DNA of 39,665 nt from an unicellular cyanobacterium SU3 (GTDB lineage: Bacteria > Cyanobacteriota > Cyanobacteriia > Cyanobacteriales > Microcystaceae), in assembly GCA_002172675.1 (NCBI GenBank), contig NETF01000191.1, forward strand, positions 1 through 39,665, in the 5' to 3' direction. Position 1 is the first letter of the stretch, and each line of letters opens with the position of its first letter. Both the position numbers and the translations under genes were made by a program. Below, one piece after another: positions 3,835 through 28,817 of this stretch. The notes beneath the pieces are model-generated. The model was not told the DNA's origin, did no database searches, and saw only the letters and a list, made by a program, of their open reading frames with translations.

Positions 3835-3908
3835 AGCAGACTCTTGACCCTTAACTCATAGCAATTCTATCATCTCAGGTTTTTGATTGTCTGATCAGAT
3901 TTGTTAAA

Positions 3909-5819
3909 CTAAGCCAGGCTGTCACCAGCCCGACTCGTCTTCAAAACCGTGCTTGCGACTTTCACCGCACACGGCTCCTCTGTTAATAGGCTCTTGTTAT
4001 GAGTACCATTAACCAGTGAAGGTGAGCCGTTATTCCATTCCCATTTCCCTGAGAAAAAATGAGATTTGAATTCTTTTTGGATTTTATTCCAGGTTTTTAG
4101 GCTTTTGTAGGCATTAATATCCTGTAAGTCCTTCTTGGTTTTTATGTCATGGCAATGAATATGTAGTGCCTGGAGATTGTCGGTTTGATTGTTACCTCCT
4201 GCTTTGAGGGGTATTATATGGTCGATTTCGATTTTGTCTCCAGGTCTGAAGGTTAATCCGCAATGGTTACATTTGCCTCCTTGCTTTTTGAGCTTGGATG
4301 CGGTTGTTTTTTTCATTTCTGGATGTTTACCCATTCTTGTAGCCCAGTAGTTAGTGTTTCCATCGTATGGGCTTGATTTGCCTTTTACTTTGATGTGCTT
4401 CACTATTTTTGTTTGGCTGTGTTTGGGAAGGATATATTCTTTTCCTTTTTCTTTACATCCGAAATTCCATCTACTTAATTCCTTAGATTGCCAGTATTTA
4501 TTTATCACCCAGTATTTAGCTTTGTTAGAGTGTCTTTTTAACGCCCACCTGTAGAGCTTCAACCATAGTAAATAGTCGAGTTTTGAAAAGGTTTTTGAAC
4601 TACATCCAGTTTTATAGTAGTTTGTCCATCCCCTTATAATTGGTATTAATTGTGTTATTAATGCCCTCTGAGGTGATGCTTTGTGTTTATCTACTATTTT
4701 TGCTAGTTTTTTGTAGTATTCGTTTATCTTTTCTTTGCTCGGTTCGGTGATTGTTTTGAACCCCAGTTTTTCTCCATGAGTATTTTTTCCAGAATGATTT
4801 TTTCCTATTTTGTATTGTCTGATGTGGAACCCTAAGAAATTCAACCCTGGTTTCTTTCCTTTATATTCTTCTAAGGTATGTAGTATTTTGGTTTTTTCTT
4901 GGTTTAATTTCAGACCTATGGGATTTAACCAGTCCTGTATTATTTCCTGACAGGTTTCAATTACGTTCAGGTTTTCGTGAATTATAATAAAGTCGTCTGC
5001 GTATCTTATAAGGGAGATGGATCTTATATTTTCCTTCTTTGTCCCTTTCCATGTGGCAGCATACTTTTTAATCCTTTCTTCCATCCCGTGTAGAGCTATG
5101 TTGGCTAATAATGGTGAGCAAATGCCACCTTGAGGGGTTCCTTCTTCTGGAAATATGGTTTTTCCCTGATCTAGAATACCTGCTTTTAGCCATGCTCTTA
5201 TTTGTCTCCTTAGTGTCGGGAATGTATTTATTTTCTCAAGGAGTTTTGAGTGATTTATGCGGTCAAAGCATTTACTTATGTCAGCATCTAGAACATATTT
5301 TGCCTTATATCTGATTTGATTAAAAATCGCCTCAACTGCATCGTGACAGCATCTTCCAGGTCTGAATCCATAAGAATTTTCTTCAAACCTTGCTTCCCAT
5401 TCGGGTTCTAATGCTGATTTGACTAGGGCTTGTTTTGCTCTATCTTGCATGACTGGTATTCCCAAGGGTCTTTGTTTACCGTTAGCTTTAGGTATCCAGA
5501 CTCTGCGAACAGGTTTGGCTTTGTTCCCTAGCTTTAGGTTTTGGGCTAAATTCAACCTTTGTTTTGGTGTCAATGATTTGACTCCATCGATTCCGGCTGT
5601 CTTCTTACCTTTATTTTCCTGGGATATTTTTCTGACCGCTAATAACTTGGCGTAGTAGGAGTTCAGGAGTGTTTTTTGTAGTTTCCTAACCTTCTTAATA
5701 TCACCATTGACGCTGGCTTGATAGATTCGTTTTTGAAGTTTGAACACAGCTTTTTCGACTTTACGCCAATTTATCTGGTTCCATTCCACCGTATTTGATT
5801 TCAAATCAGTCTTAGACAT
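3909..5819 (-). CDS. ltrA: Group II intron reverse transcriptase/maturase with HNH endonuclease
   Basis: The 636-residue intron-encoded protein has RT blocks from about residue 70 (ending with the catalytic YADDF at 273-277 and EGTPQGG at 226-232), a maturase X domain around residues 390-450 (GWTNYYKTGCSSKTFSKLD), and a C-terminal HNH endonuclease at about 517-562 (CNHCG, EIDHIIPL, NLQALHIHCH). It would splice the intron RNA and support retrohoming by target-primed reverse transcription. The frame runs on beyond the HNH through domain V (residues about 613-625 translate domain V) and stops within domain VI. The last 25 or so residues are therefore ribozyme sequence read as protein. Confidence 0.95.
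   Translation of the reverse strand: MSKTDLKSNTVEWNQINWRKVEKAVFKLQKRIYQASVNGDIKKVRKLQKTLLNSYYAKLLAVRKISQENKGKKTAGIDGVKSLTPKQRLNLAQNLKLGNKAKPVRRVWIPKANGKQRPLGIPVMQDRAKQALVKSALEPEWEARFEENSYGFRPGRCCHDAVEAIFNQIRYKAKYVLDADISKCFDRINHSKLLEKINTFPTLRRQIRAWLKAGILDQGKTIFPEEGTPQGGICSPLLANIALHGMEERIKKYAATWKGTKKENIRSISLIRYADDFIIIHENLNVIETCQEIIQDWLNPIGLKLNQEKTKILHTLEEYKGKKPGLNFLGFHIRQYKIGKNHSGKNTHGEKLGFKTITEPSKEKINEYYKKLAKIVDKHKASPQRALITQLIPIIRGWTNYYKTGCSSKTFSKLDYLLWLKLYRWALKRHSNKAKYWVINKYWQSKELSRWNFGCKEKGKEYILPKHSQTKIVKHIKVKGKSSPYDGNTNYWATRMGKHPEMKKTTASKLKKQGGKCNHCGLTFRPGDKIEIDHIIPLKAGGNNQTDNLQALHIHCHDIKTKKDLQDINAYKSLKTWNKIQKEFKSHFFSGKWEWNNGSPSLVNGTHNKSLLTEEPCAVKVASTVLKTSRAGDSLA
3944..3977 (-). ncRNA. Domain V of group II intron 1
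   Basis: This 34-nt hairpin on the minus strand starts GAGCCGTGTG and ends GCACGGTTT. The catalytic-triad-bearing lower stem, GAAA tetraloop-like tip (GTGAAAGTC) and bulge are recognisable. It is the most conserved part of the ribozyme and fixes the intron's orientation. Confidence 0.9.
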
Positions 5820-6102
5820 ATTAGCCTCTACTAACTCAGCTATCTTCCTATAAACAGTCAGTACGTCAGCTTATCCTTGGCATTACCCTTCTGTTACCTT
5901 TGTTTCGGTAAAGCGATACTCGTCATTTCGAGTTAAGGCATTTGCTTCTTACTGAATCCTACTCCCCCTATGACCTCCATTTTTTAGGAGATTTTGCATC
6001 TTGGTTGATTACTCAGAAGTTTTCGACCATTTTCTGAGAGTCATAGGGGGGTTTCCCCGTTCCGAATATCCGTTGATATGAATCGTTAGGATGTGTCTAT
6101 TC

Positions 6103-6337
6103 ACCGAGAGGCAATTAGTGTTGTATTACTTGCAGTGATATCAAGTAACAATTTTATTTTCCTCTGTTGACTTTTGTCTGTAGCCTGATCAGTCTATTTG
6201 GCTACTTTTAAATAACGATGATTTGACTTTTAACCTGTCTACCGAGTGCTATTAGTGTTGTGTCTCTTCTGAACTAATAAAGAGATAATATTATGCACTT
6301 TTACTTTTTTGTGTAGCTTTTCAGTCTATTTAGCTAC
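6103..6337 (-). repeat. Imperfect tandem duplication in domain I of intron 1
   Basis: Two related copies, about 6103-6205 and 6241-6337, are offset by 132-138 bp. On the plus strand both run ACCGAG, then ATTAGTGTTGT, then GTAGC, then CAGTCTATTTxGCTAC. The closing stem is GTAGCC/GGCTAC in one copy and GTAGCT/AGCTAC in the other, which is a compensatory base-pair change. Confidence 0.8.
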
Positions 6338-6838
6338 TCCGAAGTCACGATAGTTTTGGTACTTTGGGCAATAACGCTCTATCCATAGATTCTTGCTTGA
6401 GGTTAACCGAATTAGACTTTCCGTTAATACCCCTTTTAACCCTGCTTTGTGGATTGATGACCAGTCGCTACCACAAGGGTTATGCTTTTACTCCCAACAC
6501 CGAGAGAGGAGGGCTTGAGATTTTAAGGTTTTGTTATTATTTACCACCTATTTTATTTGTGCTATGACCTTTCAATAGGCATTCTCACCTCCACGGGTAT
6601 TCAGTTATCATGGTTCCAATAAATCAGTTCCATGCTAGTCCCACCAAGGCTTTTAGCCTTGTTTTGGACTAAACGGGTCGCACATCACTATTTTAATCAT
6701 ACCGACATTGAGATTAAAACAGCGAAATTACACAGAAATTTAGGCTTTCCCACCAAATAAATAGGCTGATAATAGTCTTAACTGAAACTTAATGATTAAC
6801 CGCATTCTAGAAAATCATGTTATTGTAATAAGGTATGT

Positions 6839-24164: not shown

Positions 24165-24193
24165 TTGAAAATAGTATAAATGTTTGCTATAAT
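24165..24193 (+). promoter_or_regulatory. Sigma-70-type promoter of the R-M operon
   Basis: TTGAAA (24165-24170), a 17-bp spacer, then TATAAT (24188-24193) preceded by TGC (extended -10). It lies 28 bp before the GTG start of the methyltransferase. This is close to consensus, the best promoter I can see in the window. Confidence 0.75.
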
Positions 24194-24220: not shown

Positions 24221-27200
24221 GTGAACAATCCAATCATAAAACCTTTTTTAAAGTGGGCAGGTGGAAGTGCGATTCGTTAGGTCGAAACCGTTATATAACG
24301 GGGGATGACCTGGGCTTTTTCTAACAAGAAAAGTCACAACTGGAGAGAGTTTCTAGGTTAAAATCCTAGCATCGTGATGTTTCGATTGACTCCATTATCC
24401 CTGTCAAAGAGACTGGTTATCAAATTGGCAAAGCGGGATAAAAAGCAAGTAACAGCCAACCTATCTAAAGCTAAATCCTTGCGAGGGAGGTTGAAAGGGT
24501 AAACGAAAGTGAACTGACGTTTGAAGCGTCGTCAGCCCAAGACTACGGACACGATAGGTATTGTTCATGTCAACTATGAATGGGAAACAGCGAATTTCCT
24601 CTTGTTGTTTAAACATCCAACTCTTACCCATAAGAGCATTCATCGGCGTATAGTCAGTACCCAACCCAACCAGACAAAACCTCTTCGGAACGAAGTAACC
24701 CTGATAAAGTTCTCTTTTGAGTAGGCAACCAAGCCATAAACCTTATTAGGGAAGGATGATGCCAGAAGCCAACGCCTTAAGTAATGTCAAGGATATGCAG
24801 ACGGGCATCCCTAAGTCTAGAGAGTAGAAACTTAGTAAGAAGTAAAATGACCAATACGAGTGAAATAACTACGGTGGAAATGAAATGGCGTGATGTTAAC
24901 TGGAAATCAGTTAACAGAGCCGTATTTCGACTTCAGAAAAGAATCTACAAAGCGTCACAAGGTGGTGACATCAAAACTGTCAGGAAACTCCAAAAGTTAC
25001 TGGTAAAATCCAAATCAGCAAAACTCATTGCGGTTAGGAAAGTTACACAGGACAATACGGACAAGAACACTCCAGGAATAGATGGTGTAGCCAAAATAGC
25101 TCCCAATCAAAGACTAGAGCTAGTTCAAAACCTCAAATTTGATGGAAAAGCCAAACCTGTCAGAAGGATTGAAATCCCGAAGCCTGGAAAAAAGGAGAAA
25201 GCGGATGCGCCATCGGCGAGGTTTCCTCGCCAAAGAAGCGCGCACCAAGAAAGACCACTAGGCATTCCTGTAATGGAGGACAGAGCAAAACAGGCACTAG
25301 CCAAACTTGCTTTGGAACCAGAATGGGAAGCAAAGTTTGAAGCCAATTCCTATGGCTTTAGACCTGGAAAAAGTGCCAAAGATGCTATTGCAGCAATCTA
25401 CAGTGACATCAATAAAATGAGTTACTATGTTCTAGATGCTGACATAGAAAAGTGCTTCGACCAAATAAACCATAAAAGACTACTGAACAAACTCAATACC
25501 TACCCAGGTATGCGTCGTCAAATAAAAGCATGGCTCAAATCAGGAGTTATAGAACAGGATGTCTTTTATAAAACAGAAAGTGGAACTCCTCAAGGTGGTG
25601 TAATTTCCCCTTTATTGGCTAACATAGCCTTACACGGGATGCAGGAGGCGTTACATGACGCTTTCCCTAAGAAATACACTACAAAAGCAATGGCACAGAT
25701 GTACGGAATCAGACCCGACATTTTATTCAATCCCCCTCTATTTCATAGATATGCAGATGACTTTGTTATCCTACATAAAAGCAAGAAAGTTATAGAGGAA
25801 TGCCGTGAATTAATCAATGATTGGTTAAATCTTATGGGTCTAAAACTTAAAGACTCTAAGACAAGAATTGCCCATACCCTTGGTGATGGAAAAGTCCAAC
25901 CAGGATTTGACTACCTAGGGTTCAATGTAAGGCAATACCCAGTTAAAGATATAAATAGCGCAACTGATAGAAGAGGTAACAAATTAGGCTTCAAAACCTT
26001 AATTAAACCATCAAAAGAAGCGATAAAACGTCATACTAAAGTCCTAAAACAAACAATCCGACAATACCGCAATGCCCCACAAGAGAAATTAATAGAAAAA
26101 CTTACCCCCAAAATTAGGAGATGGAGTAACTATTATGACTCAGTGGTAAGCTCCAGAGTCTTCGGTAAACTAGACAACATCTTATACCACCAACTTCTCA
26201 GATGGGGTTACTACCGTGCGCCCATGCAAGAAAAAAAGCACACAGTAAACAGATACTGGGGAGTAGATAGAGGTTTAGGATGGGTATTCATCACTCCAGA
26301 TGGAAAACAACTCAGAAGACATAAAGACACCCCCATTAAACGAGTCATAAGACTAAAAGGACAAAAATCACCTTATGACGGTGATTAGGTGTACTGGACA
26401 CAACGACTCTCCAAATATACAACAGTTAAGAGGGAAGTCATAATGTTGATGAAAAAGCAAAAAGGTAAATGCACCTTATGCAATCAATACTTTACCAGTG
26501 AAGATAATTTGGAAATAGACCATATAATCCCCCAGATATCAGGAGGAAAAAACAATATGGCTAATAAACAACTTCTGCACAACTATTGTCATCACAAGAA
26601 GACTACCAGCGATGGTAGCCGTGAACGTAAATCAAACTAGCTAGGAGGAGCCGAATGAAGGGGAACTTTCACGTTCGGTTTTGAATGAGAGTTTGGGATA
26701 GCGATATCCCATTCGACTCTAACAAAGGCAATTAATAGCTCAGATCAAGAAAAATATGCCTGAAAAATATAATAAATATTATGAAGTTTTTCTAGGTGGA
26801 GGGGCTGTATTATTTACAATTCAGCCTTCTCGTGCTGTTATCAATGACAGTAATAAGGAATTAGTTAATTGTTATAAAGTTATTCGTGATCATGCTGACG
26901 ACTTAATTGAAGAATTAAAAAAACATAAAAATGATAAAGATTATTTTTACGAAATTAGAGGATTAGATAGAAATACAAAAAAGTATAGTAAATTATCTAG
27001 TATTCAAAGAGCTTCAAGAATTATTTACTTAAATAAAACTTGTTATAATGGTTTATTTAGAGTCAATTCACAAGGAGAGTTTAATGTCCCATACGGAAAA
27101 TATAAAAATCCTGATATTGTTAACGAAGCTGTGATTAAAGCTGTGAGTAAATATTTGAGTGATAATATTATTGATATTTTAAATCAAGATTTTGCTGAAG

Positions 27201-27517
27201 CTTTGACTTCAGCAACAAAAGGAGATTTTGTTTATTTAGATCCTCCTTATGATCCTGTGTCTGATACAGCTTCGTTTACTGGATATGATATTAATGGTTT
27301 TAATAAAGAAGATCAAAAAAGACTCAAAGAATTGGTTGATCAGCTTCATGAGAAGGGCTGTAAAATTTTGCTGAGTAATTCTTATACAGATTTTATTCGT
27401 GATTTATATAAAGACACTTATTATAAACACATAAAAATTTCTGCTATCAGATCCATTAACTCACACGCTAATAAAAGAGGTAAAGTAGACGAGATTCTAG
27501 TAAAAAATTATGAATGA
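24221..27517 (+). CDS. D12-class N6-adenine DNA methyltransferase, split by a group II intron
   Basis: Exon 1 is 24221-24266, GTG start: (M)NNPIIKPFLKWAGG plus one base. Exon 2 is 26724-27517. Joining GGTGGAA to AAAGGCAATTA gives GG-K-R-Q-L-I, restoring the family's N-terminal KWAGGKRQLI (motif X). Motif I follows as EVFLGGGAVLF, then the conserved LNKTCYNGLFRVNSQGEFNVPYG, and motif IV DPPYDPVSDTASF. About 279 residues after splicing, normal for Dam/DpnM relatives. It methylates adenine to protect host DNA from the adjacent endonuclease; target sequence unknown. If unspliced, internal ATG 26756 would give a protein without motif X. The stop overlaps the endonuclease start by 8 bp. Confidence 0.93.
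24847..26388 (+). CDS. ltrA: Group II intron RT/maturase, truncated before the HNH domain
   Basis: From ATG 24847 (513 residues) the protein has RT blocks with KPVRRIEIPK, RPLGIPVMEDRAKQAL, YVLDADIEKCFDQI, GTPQGGVISPLLAN and the catalytic YADDF, then maturase domain X (WSNYYDSVVSSRVFGKLD). A frame upstream to TTG/ATG 24784 looks like ribozyme sequence. The protein ends at TAG 26386-26388 after KSPYDGD, where intron 1's protein continues into its HNH. Between IPKPGK and RPLGIP there is an extra segment of about 17-18 residues (EKADAPSARFPRQRSAHQ) that intron 1's protein lacks; its DNA is GC-rich with a 17-bp palindrome. Splicing activity looks preserved; mobility may be reduced. Confidence 0.92.
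   Translation: MTNTSEITTVEMKWRDVNWKSVNRAVFRLQKRIYKASQGGDIKTVRKLQKLLVKSKSAKLIAVRKVTQDNTDKNTPGIDGVAKIAPNQRLELVQNLKFDGKAKPVRRIEIPKPGKKEKADAPSARFPRQRSAHQERPLGIPVMEDRAKQALAKLALEPEWEAKFEANSYGFRPGKSAKDAIAAIYSDINKMSYYVLDADIEKCFDQINHKRLLNKLNTYPGMRRQIKAWLKSGVIEQDVFYKTESGTPQGGVISPLLANIALHGMQEALHDAFPKKYTTKAMAQMYGIRPDILFNPPLFHRYADDFVILHKSKKVIEECRELINDWLNLMGLKLKDSKTRIAHTLGDGKVQPGFDYLGFNVRQYPVKDINSATDRRGNKLGFKTLIKPSKEAIKRHTKVLKQTIRQYRNAPQEKLIEKLTPKIRRWSNYYDSVVSSRVFGKLDNILYHQLLRWGYYRAPMQEKKHTVNRYWGVDRGLGWVFITPDGKQLRRHKDTPIKRVIRLKGQKSPYDGD
25201..25249. repeat. In-frame GC-rich palindromic insertion in the RT gene
   Basis: The segment contains GGCGAGG-TTT-CCTCGCC at 25215-25231 and is absent from the related protein of intron 1. 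It adds about 17-18 codons without a frameshift. The limits are approximate, set by protein alignment. Confidence 0.65.
26389..26640 (+). pseudogene. Detached HNH endonuclease domain of intron 2
   Basis: In the same frame as the maturase and directly after its TAG, starting GTG: VYWTQRLSKYTTVKREV, then the zinc-type HNH with CTLCNQYF, LEIDHIIPQISGGKNN and LLHNYCHHKK. It aligns to residues about 490-560 of intron 1's protein. The TAG-GTG adjacency could allow re-initiation and a separate 83-residue endonuclease; otherwise the domain is lost. No Shine-Dalgarno is obvious. Confidence 0.8.
26648..26681 (+). ncRNA. Domain V of group II intron 2
   Basis: A 34-nt hairpin starting GAGCCGAATG and ending CGTTCGGTTT, the catalytic core. 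Domain VI (about 26682-26720) follows with stem GGGATA/TATCCC. Confidence 0.9.
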
Positions 27518-28817
27518 TTCTGAAAATATTAAACTAACAAAAAATGATGAAGCATGGAAAAGAATATTTGACAAATACAATATCCTTGAACAGTTGAAAA
27601 CTAATGGACATTTTATAATTAAATCAGAGCAAATAAATGAATTTAGAGAAACTCGCTTAATGGTAAAATTTGACCATAAAACCACATTACCCAAAATTTT
27701 TAAAGATAATCGATTATCTATATTACCAATTTCTAGATGTGAATATTTTATTGGACATTTTGATACTCATTATAAAGTTGATTATGATGAAGAACGATCA
27801 GAAACTCGTGTTGAATTTCCTTCGTTTATTCAAACCATAGATTATACTAATATATCTAGTGAAAGTTTAGCTTTACATTGTGCTTTTAATGCTGGAATAA
27901 TAGCAGCTTTACTATCAGACTTATTAGAGATTACAGAGCCTTTATGCTATCATACCTTATTCGGTAGAATGTCAACGGGGAGATTTTCCTTTAAAATTGA
28001 AAATGTCTTATCAAATAATCTGTATAATTTATCAGTAGATAGTTCTCAGTGTGAAATTGATGGTGGATTTGAAACAGAAGATTGTTTATTAATTATTGAA
28101 GCTAAAAATAGAATTGTTGATGATTTCTTAGTTCGTCAGTTATATTATCCCTATCGATTATGGAAAGATAAAATTAGCAAAAAAGTAATTCCAGCCTTGA
28201 TGACTTATTCTGATAATTTATTTAGTTTTTTTATTTATGATTTTTCTAATCAAGAAGAGTATAATTCTATTAAATTAGTTGAAGAATATCACTATAGTTT
28301 CTCACCAGAAGAAATTGACACTCAAGAGGTTAGTGATATCTTCAATAAAGTCATAATAAAAGAAGAGTCGGTTGATGGTGTTCCTTTTCCACAAGCTAAT
28401 GTATTTCCCCGGATTATCGAATTACTTTCTTTATTATGGAAACAAGAATCATTAAGTAAAGAAGAAATTAGTAGTTATTATGGATTTGCTATTAGACAAG
28501 CTGACTATTATTCTAATGCAGGTAAATATTTAGGTTTAATTATAGAAAATGAGTCCTCCTCATCTACATTATTGGAATTAACAGATGAAGGATTATCAAT
28601 TTTTCGTCGTAGTTATAAAGAAAAAATCTTGTTTTTAATTGAAAAAATATTAGAACACAGAATTTTTTATGAAGTTTTTAATATCAGCTTGATTTCGGGA
28701 GAAATTCCGACTAAAGAGGAGATTATAGAAATAATGAAAGAACACTTCAATTTAGATCATTTAAGCGATAAAACAATTAAGAGACGTTCAACAACTGTTA
28801 AAAAATGGATAGAATAG
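27510..28817 (+). CDS. Type II restriction endonuclease (PD-(D/E)XK)
   Basis: The 435-residue protein is encoded right after the methyltransferase with an 8-bp overlap. Its central part has the nuclease core SSQCEIDGGF (Asp184) and LLIIEAKN (Glu197, Lys199), in the E-x-D...E-A-K form. The N-terminal half is a large Asp/Phe-rich domain. The C-terminal part (SKEEISSYYGFAIRQADYYSNAGKYLGLI) looks like a winged helix, which may read DNA. Recognition sequence not predictable. Full length and without stops. Context makes the R-M role much more likely than any other. Confidence 0.82.
   Translation: MNDSENIKLTKNDEAWKRIFDKYNILEQLKTNGHFIIKSEQINEFRETRLMVKFDHKTTLPKIFKDNRLSILPISRCEYFIGHFDTHYKVDYDEERSETRVEFPSFIQTIDYTNISSESLALHCAFNAGIIAALLSDLLEITEPLCYHTLFGRMSTGRFSFKIENVLSNNLYNLSVDSSQCEIDGGFETEDCLLIIEAKNRIVDDFLVRQLYYPYRLWKDKISKKVIPALMTYSDNLFSFFIYDFSNQEEYNSIKLVEEYHYSFSPEEIDTQEVSDIFNKVIIKEESVDGVPFPQANVFPRIIELLSLLWKQESLSKEEISSYYGFAIRQADYYSNAGKYLGLIIENESSSSTLLELTDEGLSIFRRSYKEKILFLIEKILEHRIFYEVFNISLISGEIPTKEEIIEIMKEHFNLDHLSDKTIKRRSTTVKKWIE

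Follow-up and report, generated by a model that had tools for sequence, protein, structure and literature searches.

What becomes of a restriction-modification (R-M) methyltransferase when its gene is split by a group II intron in the codons of its KWAGGK motif? We addressed this question at a locus of the unicellular cyanobacterium SU3 (assembly GCA_002172675.1, contig NETF01000191.1, positions 1 to 39,665, forward strand; this whole stretch of 39,665 nucleotides is called the window below). An initial annotation had placed a group II intron in these codons, noted an endonuclease gene without an intron just downstream, and proposed that protection of the host depends on splicing. We consider it very probable that the intron homed into a methyltransferase gene of the Dam/M.DpnII type, and that methylation and immunity would now require splicing. 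This reading builds on the intron's boundaries and phase, on empty sites in relatives, on the divergence of intron and gene, and on purifying selection on exon 2 and on the relatives' maturase. The parts of the locus are:

24221 to 24266, plus strand: methyltransferase exon 1, from a GTG start to the first base of a lysine codon (..PFLKWAGG/K), by translation
24267 to 26723, plus strand: group II intron of 2457 nucleotides, GTGCG...CTAAC, delimited by its ends, Rfam and the relatives' junctions
26724 to 27517, plus strand: methyltransferase exon 2, D12 class, DPPY present, by translation and Pfam
27510 to 28817, plus strand: putative restriction endonuclease, DUF6996/6997/7226, with a GFE..IIEAK stretch, by Pfam; overlaps the methyltransferase stop by 8 nucleotides

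Joined, the two exons translate as a single 279-amino-acid frame that reads ...PFLKWAGGKRQLIAQ..., exactly in frame across GGK as had been claimed; the intron is in phase 1 and splits the lysine codon of KWAGGK after its first A. Exon 2 matches the Pfam family MethyltransfD12 (E = 1.6e-66), and the methyltransferase scores 303 bits in the D12 (Dam) family test TIGR00571 (cut-off 114.85) and carries KWAGGK, FxGGGA and DPPY, which we take to be the D12 motifs. The closest solved structure is M.DpnII (2dpm, E = 8e-82), and the next is E. coli Dam. The KWAGGK end is absent from exon 2 alone and is presumably part of the S-adenosylmethionine-binding site. The intron has a GTGYG 5′ end, an AY 3′ end and domains V and VI; Rfam RF00029, which represents these two domains, matches positions 26646-26723 with 54.6 bits (gathering score 40) and ends exactly at the intron end. 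The split gene is not a chance artefact, because relatives share the junction and 20 of 20 intronless homologues in a second cyanobacterial family (f2) have a contiguous GGK site. Boundaries, phase, RF00029 and the shared junction thus uphold the intron as first annotated, and the reading frame of the downstream endonuclease is uninterrupted, as had also been noted.

We propose that a mobile group II intron entered the adenine methyltransferase motif by homing, at its Gly-Gly-Lys codons, and that the ribozyme, aided by its own maturase, would leave the mRNA and restore GGKRQ. Because excision would restore GGKRQ, methylation and immunity to the cognate endonuclease would require splicing. Copies at this site would lose mobility, first the HNH domain and then the reverse transcriptase (RT) active site, and would keep the maturase because the host gene is needed. 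The proposal supposes that splicing occurs and that its loss would be harmful; because the two genes overlap at the methyltransferase stop, RNA left unspliced may yield neither protein, and any poisoning would then be milder. The likeliest account is that the intron arrived by homing and that its copies are then held captive by a gene whose function is required.

The first 580 bases of the intron were screened against 388 genomes of the order, 61 genomes of f2 were screened separately, and the flanks of the stronger, more complete matches were read; these are draft genomes (G359 is 83% and G351 85% complete). This intron occupies the same D12 codon in 11 of the 388 genomes, the window's included. 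Both exons abut it in phase in eight genomes (the window's, G353, G340, G195, G322, G317, G282 and G328); G336 has both exons and a second intron ahead of the one at the common site, G351 has exon 1 only, at a contig end, and G359 has exon 2 only. All intron-bearing genomes other than the window's belong to f2, making two cyanobacterial families in total. The exon-1 pattern occurs once each in 10 of the 11, G359 being the one without it. There, on contig C307 (L115 5084), the 5′ flank of the intron is intergenic, about 239 base pairs after an opcA-like gene, and the 3′ flank is methyltransferase exon 2; either recombination between intron copies or misassembly would give this arrangement. Empty sites are common: among 29 window-type D12 genes of f2, the intron stands before exon 2 in nine and the GGK site is uninterrupted in the other 20, and the genus g94 has three genomes with the intron and three without. 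In the window's own family, none of the other 49 genomes yielded a close, full-length copy of the intron, the best match being 84% over 172 nucleotides (G002).

These codons have also received another intron. In G336 a different intron, X, lies one nucleotide upstream of the common site, after GGAGGT, with a matching ACCTCT in its RNA, and encodes a protein with RT (including YADD), maturase and HNH domains. Two intron lineages have thus used these codons. A further intron is nested in the first, and the outer pieces joined give KWAGGKRQ; G317 has a nested domain V too. On contig C55 of G336 (L114), one methyltransferase gene thus carries three group II introns, one nucleotide upstream, at the common site, and nested. 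Among 386 genomes of the phylum, the exact site pattern was found only in the window genome (G000) and G195, both among the 11; viral contigs gave four matches, all reading through as KW[AV]GGS, and a viral source was not found. KWAGGK had been suggested as a broad retrohoming target in D12 enzymes. As a recurrent homing target the suggestion holds; its breadth was drawn too wide, because every insertion seen falls within a single Dam-type subclade, in two cyanobacterial families.

The methyltransferase gene stands beside a putative nuclease gene, as in a type II R-M gene pair. The GFE..IIEAK stretch of the nuclease looks like a PD-(D/E)xK site, and an E[AS]K stretch occurs in 14 of 16 homologues tried, partly by construction, since the script kept only frames holding E[AS]K. 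A sequence search gave no convincing solved relative of the DUF6997 nuclease, and a literature search on DUF6997 found no paper. In f2, window-type D12 enzymes (60-66% identity) occur in 29 of 61 genomes and a second type (43-50%) in another 29, both in none and neither in three; two of the 29 window-type genomes hold also a 34% D12 relative. The two Dam-type kinds are mutually exclusive in f2, as if one replaces the other. Outside f2 both types co-occur, for example in G026 and G095, and also in the window genome, where one is broken. From homology and the mutual exclusion in f2, we infer GATC as the methyltransferase's target. In f2, a DUF6997 nuclease, intact or fragmented, accompanies the window-type D12 in 24 of 29 genomes and the second type in 0 of 29 (p = 2e-11). 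This distribution is in line with a cognate pair, so the DUF6997 protein is presumably the cognate nuclease of this methyltransferase. Outside f2 the pairing is not clean: distant nuclease homologues (30-33%) stand beside the other D12 type in G034, G040, G046, G048 and G067.

Could another enzyme protect the cell if splicing failed? In the window genome, a DpnII-type methyltransferase and its nuclease both lie in pieces (G000:C208, L148 462-2310, minus strand), and an intact second Dam-type enzyme that would make splicing unimportant was rejected as a candidate for this reason. Nine f2 genomes with exon 2 gave no other D12 at E 1e-10 (drafts, one 83% complete). Because the window genome's other close D12 is broken and none was found in the nine relatives, protection plausibly depends on splicing, as the initial annotation had proposed.

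That annotation went further, to an addiction-like arrangement in which losing splicing could be lethal and the intron would be hard to lose. In a strict form of this idea, the endonuclease holds the intron captive: loss of splicing kills the strain, and the restriction gene stabilises the intron. We think this strict form possible, unproven, and on balance unlikely. In its favour, the f2 nuclease, whole or in pieces, is found only with the window-type methyltransferase; this much of the addiction idea stands. Five g121 genomes keep an uninterrupted nuclease on a separate contig (well away from the ends of long contigs in G336 and G282, with no recognisable DNA methyltransferase in the flanks read in G336), and the only D12 found in them carries the intron; and G359, where exon 1 is missing, has its nuclease broken into three pieces. 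However, an uninterrupted nuclease is present in 7 of 9 f2 genomes with the intron and in 12 of 20 without it (p = 0.43; G357, with an interrupted frame, is excluded from the 12, and G324 is included from an earlier screen, its frame not having been recovered by the script), so the nuclease does not predict the intron. G340 has the intron and a nuclease split in two, and the intron varies within g94. Five f2 genomes have the methyltransferase and no nuclease match, so the methyltransferase is retained for itself. The distant homologues outside f2 accompany the other D12 type, and a cell that lost the intron precisely would regain protection rather than be endangered. With no link between the intron and an intact endonuclease, and with the intron both present and absent inside one genus, the data here do not support strict addiction.

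The dependence on splicing that we favour bears on the fate of the protein that the intron encodes. The relevant features of the window intron are:

24847 to 26388, plus strand: intron-encoded protein (IEP) of 513 amino acids with RVT_N, RVT_1 (YADD present) and maturase domain X, by Pfam
25201 to 25251, plus strand: in-frame insert of 17 amino acids in the RT region, containing a small palindrome; none of the nine aligned relatives has it
26386 to 26388, plus strand: in-frame stop (TAG) cutting off the HNH domain; G353 has a stop at the same codon
26389 to 26640, plus strand: severed HNH endonuclease domain (Pfam HNH, E = 1.3e-10)
26646 to 26680, plus strand: ribozyme domain V, by Rfam; z -3.1
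26683 to 26723, plus strand: ribozyme domain VI and 3′ end, by Rfam; z -4.9

The window IEP scores 303.3 bits against NCBIfam group_II_RT_mat (cut-off 300), and its RT motifs are intact, only the HNH part being cut off. Because the HNH part behind the stop still matches Pfam well and compares with that of G359 at a nonsynonymous divergence (dN) of 0.106 and a synonymous divergence (dS) of 2.0, the stop is either young or sometimes read through. Ten IEPs were read, and a full-length RT-maturase-HNH protein (580 amino acids) was found only in G359. In G353 the stop at the window's codon is accompanied by a decayed HNH. YADD is lost in seven of nine relatives (G340, G195, G322, G317, G282, G328 and G336); G340, G195 and the five g121 copies have lost the HNH frame too and remain open for 467-499 codons including domain X. 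These seven relatives thus have a maturase-only, MatK-like protein, and the window IEP, which keeps YADD, does not. The window intron is single-copy in its genome, where other introns match it in pieces only, at about 67-71%. A 37-nucleotide stretch of the 51-nucleotide insert recurs at 89% identity elsewhere in that genome (G000:C7:55407-55443), with no second copy of the insert in the window; we take it to resemble protein-coding palindromic repeats.

Selection was estimated in three non-overlapping pairs of YADD-less, intron-bearing relatives. The dN/dS ratio (w) is 0.26 (0.19-0.34) for the whole IEP, 0.18 (0.10-0.30) for domain X, 0.30 for the RT part and 0.17 (0.12-0.24) for exon 2. Neutral simulation gave on average 7.1-9.5 stops per pair in the IEP and 6.1-6.6 in exon 2; none was seen in the stretches compared, each of which ended at its first stop. 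Because the maturase frame and exon 2 are under purifying selection despite the lost RT active site, splicing appears to outlive mobility in the relatives. This pattern of decay is what would be expected if splicing of the host gene were selected and mobility were not.

These estimates also bear on whether the insertion simply disabled the methyltransferase, leaving a pseudogene beside a silent or inactive endonuclease, which strikes us as improbable. The damage to the window IEP would fit such a history, as would the broken endonucleases of G340 and G359 and the decayed DpnII-type remnants elsewhere in the window genome. By contrast, neither the window nor any of the 9 relatives has a broken exon 2, which is under strong purifying selection in all three pairs; exon 1 is in phase, and the window's nuclease frame is open.

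How often was the site entered? Between G353 and G340, of one genus, dS is 0.22 for exon 2 and 0.93 for the IEP (bootstrap confidence interval of the difference 0.51 to 0.98), and identity is 80% over the whole intron and 93% in exon 2. Between G359 and G353, of different genera, the order is reversed: dS is 0.61 for exon 2 and 0.28 for the IEP (interval -0.56 to -0.14), with 91% identity over the whole intron and 79% in exon 2. The exon tree rejects a grouping of G353 with G359 (approximately unbiased (AU) test, p = 7e-6). The window methyltransferase falls in a supported clade (100/98) with the intronless G021, G001, G044 and G026, and its intron matches those of G353 and G359 at 83-84% identity, as against 67-68% for exon 2 (window to G359, 84.1% and 67.0%). 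Intron and gene divergence thus conflict both ways, which makes several separate entries into the site probable. R-M loci move, and the two parts adjoin in the window and G353, yet transfer of the whole locus as a unit with its intron, with no separate homing, is hardly credible, since the genes closest to the window methyltransferase are intronless ones of its own family, and since among the relatives the distances for intron and exon conflict both ways.

As to targeting, exon-binding sites (EBS) and intron-binding sites (IBS) were assigned by eye; the window candidates are:

24253 to 24257, plus strand: candidate IBS2, GTGGG, pairing with CCTAT; two of five pairs are G-U
24261 to 24266, plus strand: candidate IBS1, GTGGAA, five of six pairs with EBS1; the mismatch is at a synonymous glycine third position
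24460 to 24464, plus strand: candidate EBS2, CCTAT, by pairing
24596 to 24601, plus strand: candidate EBS1, TTCCTC, in the loop of hairpin 24588-24607, by pairing and hairpin

At these candidate sites EBS2 pairs at five of five positions (two G-U) and EBS1 at five of six. The stem of hairpin 24588-24607 is kept by compensatory changes in seven aligned introns (read by eye). The EBS2-like CCTAT can pair with GTGGG (two G-U) or ATGGG, and the EBS1-like TTCCTC complements GAGGAA, that is, the codons GGA GGA A, the window mismatch being due to the synonymous GGT. Among the f2 copies, those of g121 and G340 have a single EBS1 mismatch each and that of G353 has two, all likewise at glycine third positions. 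Where the intron lies outside the D12 gene (in G351 six times, read over the first bases only, and once in G336:C78), it sits at look-alike sequences with a TRGG core.

Several observations weigh against homing followed by dependence on splicing. G359 has exon 2 without exon 1, and the window IEP carries both the 17-amino-acid insert and a premature stop. The stop-free IEP comparison is so partly by construction, as frames were read to their first stop, after domain X. EBS1-IBS1 mismatches number one in the window copy and two in G353. A third, distant D12 enzyme (27%) is present in the window genome. The dS difference between window and G359 includes zero, silent sites being near saturation, and grouping the three g94 introns as one clade is rejected neither with the IEP (AU p = 0.325) nor with the whole intron (0.295). 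Because the AU tests keep a g94 intron clade possible, independent entries rest on divergence, not on topology.

Other features of the window add context. A promoter-like TTGAAA-17-TATAAT precedes the methyltransferase (24165 to 24193, plus strand), a consensus match only in a scanned region where 33 such sites were found and 24.6 expected. A second group II intron, at 3903-6683 on the minus strand (5′ end GTGCGACCC), encodes a 636-amino-acid RT/X/HNH protein about 49% identical to that of the methyltransferase intron; it is intergenic and adjoins a ribose-phosphate pyrophosphokinase-like gene. Elsewhere in the window are cytochrome b6f and cytochrome c550-like open reading frames, by which the window is recognised as cyanobacterial.

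With its D12 family membership and M.DpnII as closest solved structure, the methyltransferase resembles M.DpnII, Dam and the cyanobacterial GATC methyltransferases, among them the Anabaena enzyme, called DmtA in a paper that predicts GATC nucleases for ten cyanobacteria and lists clearly nonfunctional ones for a further six (PMC4390886). Unlike the M.DpnII systems, the window gene is interrupted by an intron and its nuclease is of DUF6997, not of the DpnII family. Our literature search turned up no report of an intron in a methyltransferase of this kind; PMC8547433 and PMC4487195 deal with other matters. A defence gene split in this way could escape gene finders, because exon 2 alone lacks the KWAGGK end.

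The nested introns of G336 recall the Trichodesmium twintron in Tery_4732, likewise group II introns in a conserved protein gene, which its authors in 2015 called the only one in a bacterial protein gene; in that paper, its introns are spliced in vivo and intron reading frames are described as often without the endonuclease or with the maturase domain only (PMC4649490). No intron was found in that gene outside the genus (PMC4649490), whereas the codon described here is filled in two families and the interrupted gene encodes an R-M methyltransferase.

According to a 2015 review, group II introns of bacteria persist chiefly through mobility and are located for the most part outside housekeeping genes (PMC4424553). 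Here, a series runs from a full-length RT-maturase-HNH protein (G359, exon 1 missing) to splicing-only copies, with empty sites as controls and a host gene whose failure the nuclease should punish, and the passage from selfish to splicing-only intron is therefore testable in bacteria. More speculatively, and with considerably more doubt than confidence, the R-M system may domesticate selfish introns: the nuclease would make splicing indispensable, mobility would be lost and the preserved maturase would serve as a dedicated splicing factor. Bacteria would then have reached the MatK condition by a route of their own, taken several times at one codon and overlaid with further introns. Non-canonical proteins are not rare as such, since a 2022 survey places about 30% of bacterial IEPs in this class, with stop-interrupted and shortened forms included (PMC8919778), and the cyanobacterial intron TeI4h, with YAGD, is another bacterial example, reported to have very low mobility (PMC2882425). 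The closest parallels are O.i.I2 in Oceanobacillus radC and chloroplast MatK, which share the loss of YADD with a kept frame and domain X and whose host gene is presumed functional in the 2015 review (PMC4424553). The review gives O.i.I2 as the only bacterial case (PMC4424553); here the state is seen in seven genomes of two genera, with selection measured, and the window copy differs from O.i.I2 and MatK in keeping YADD.

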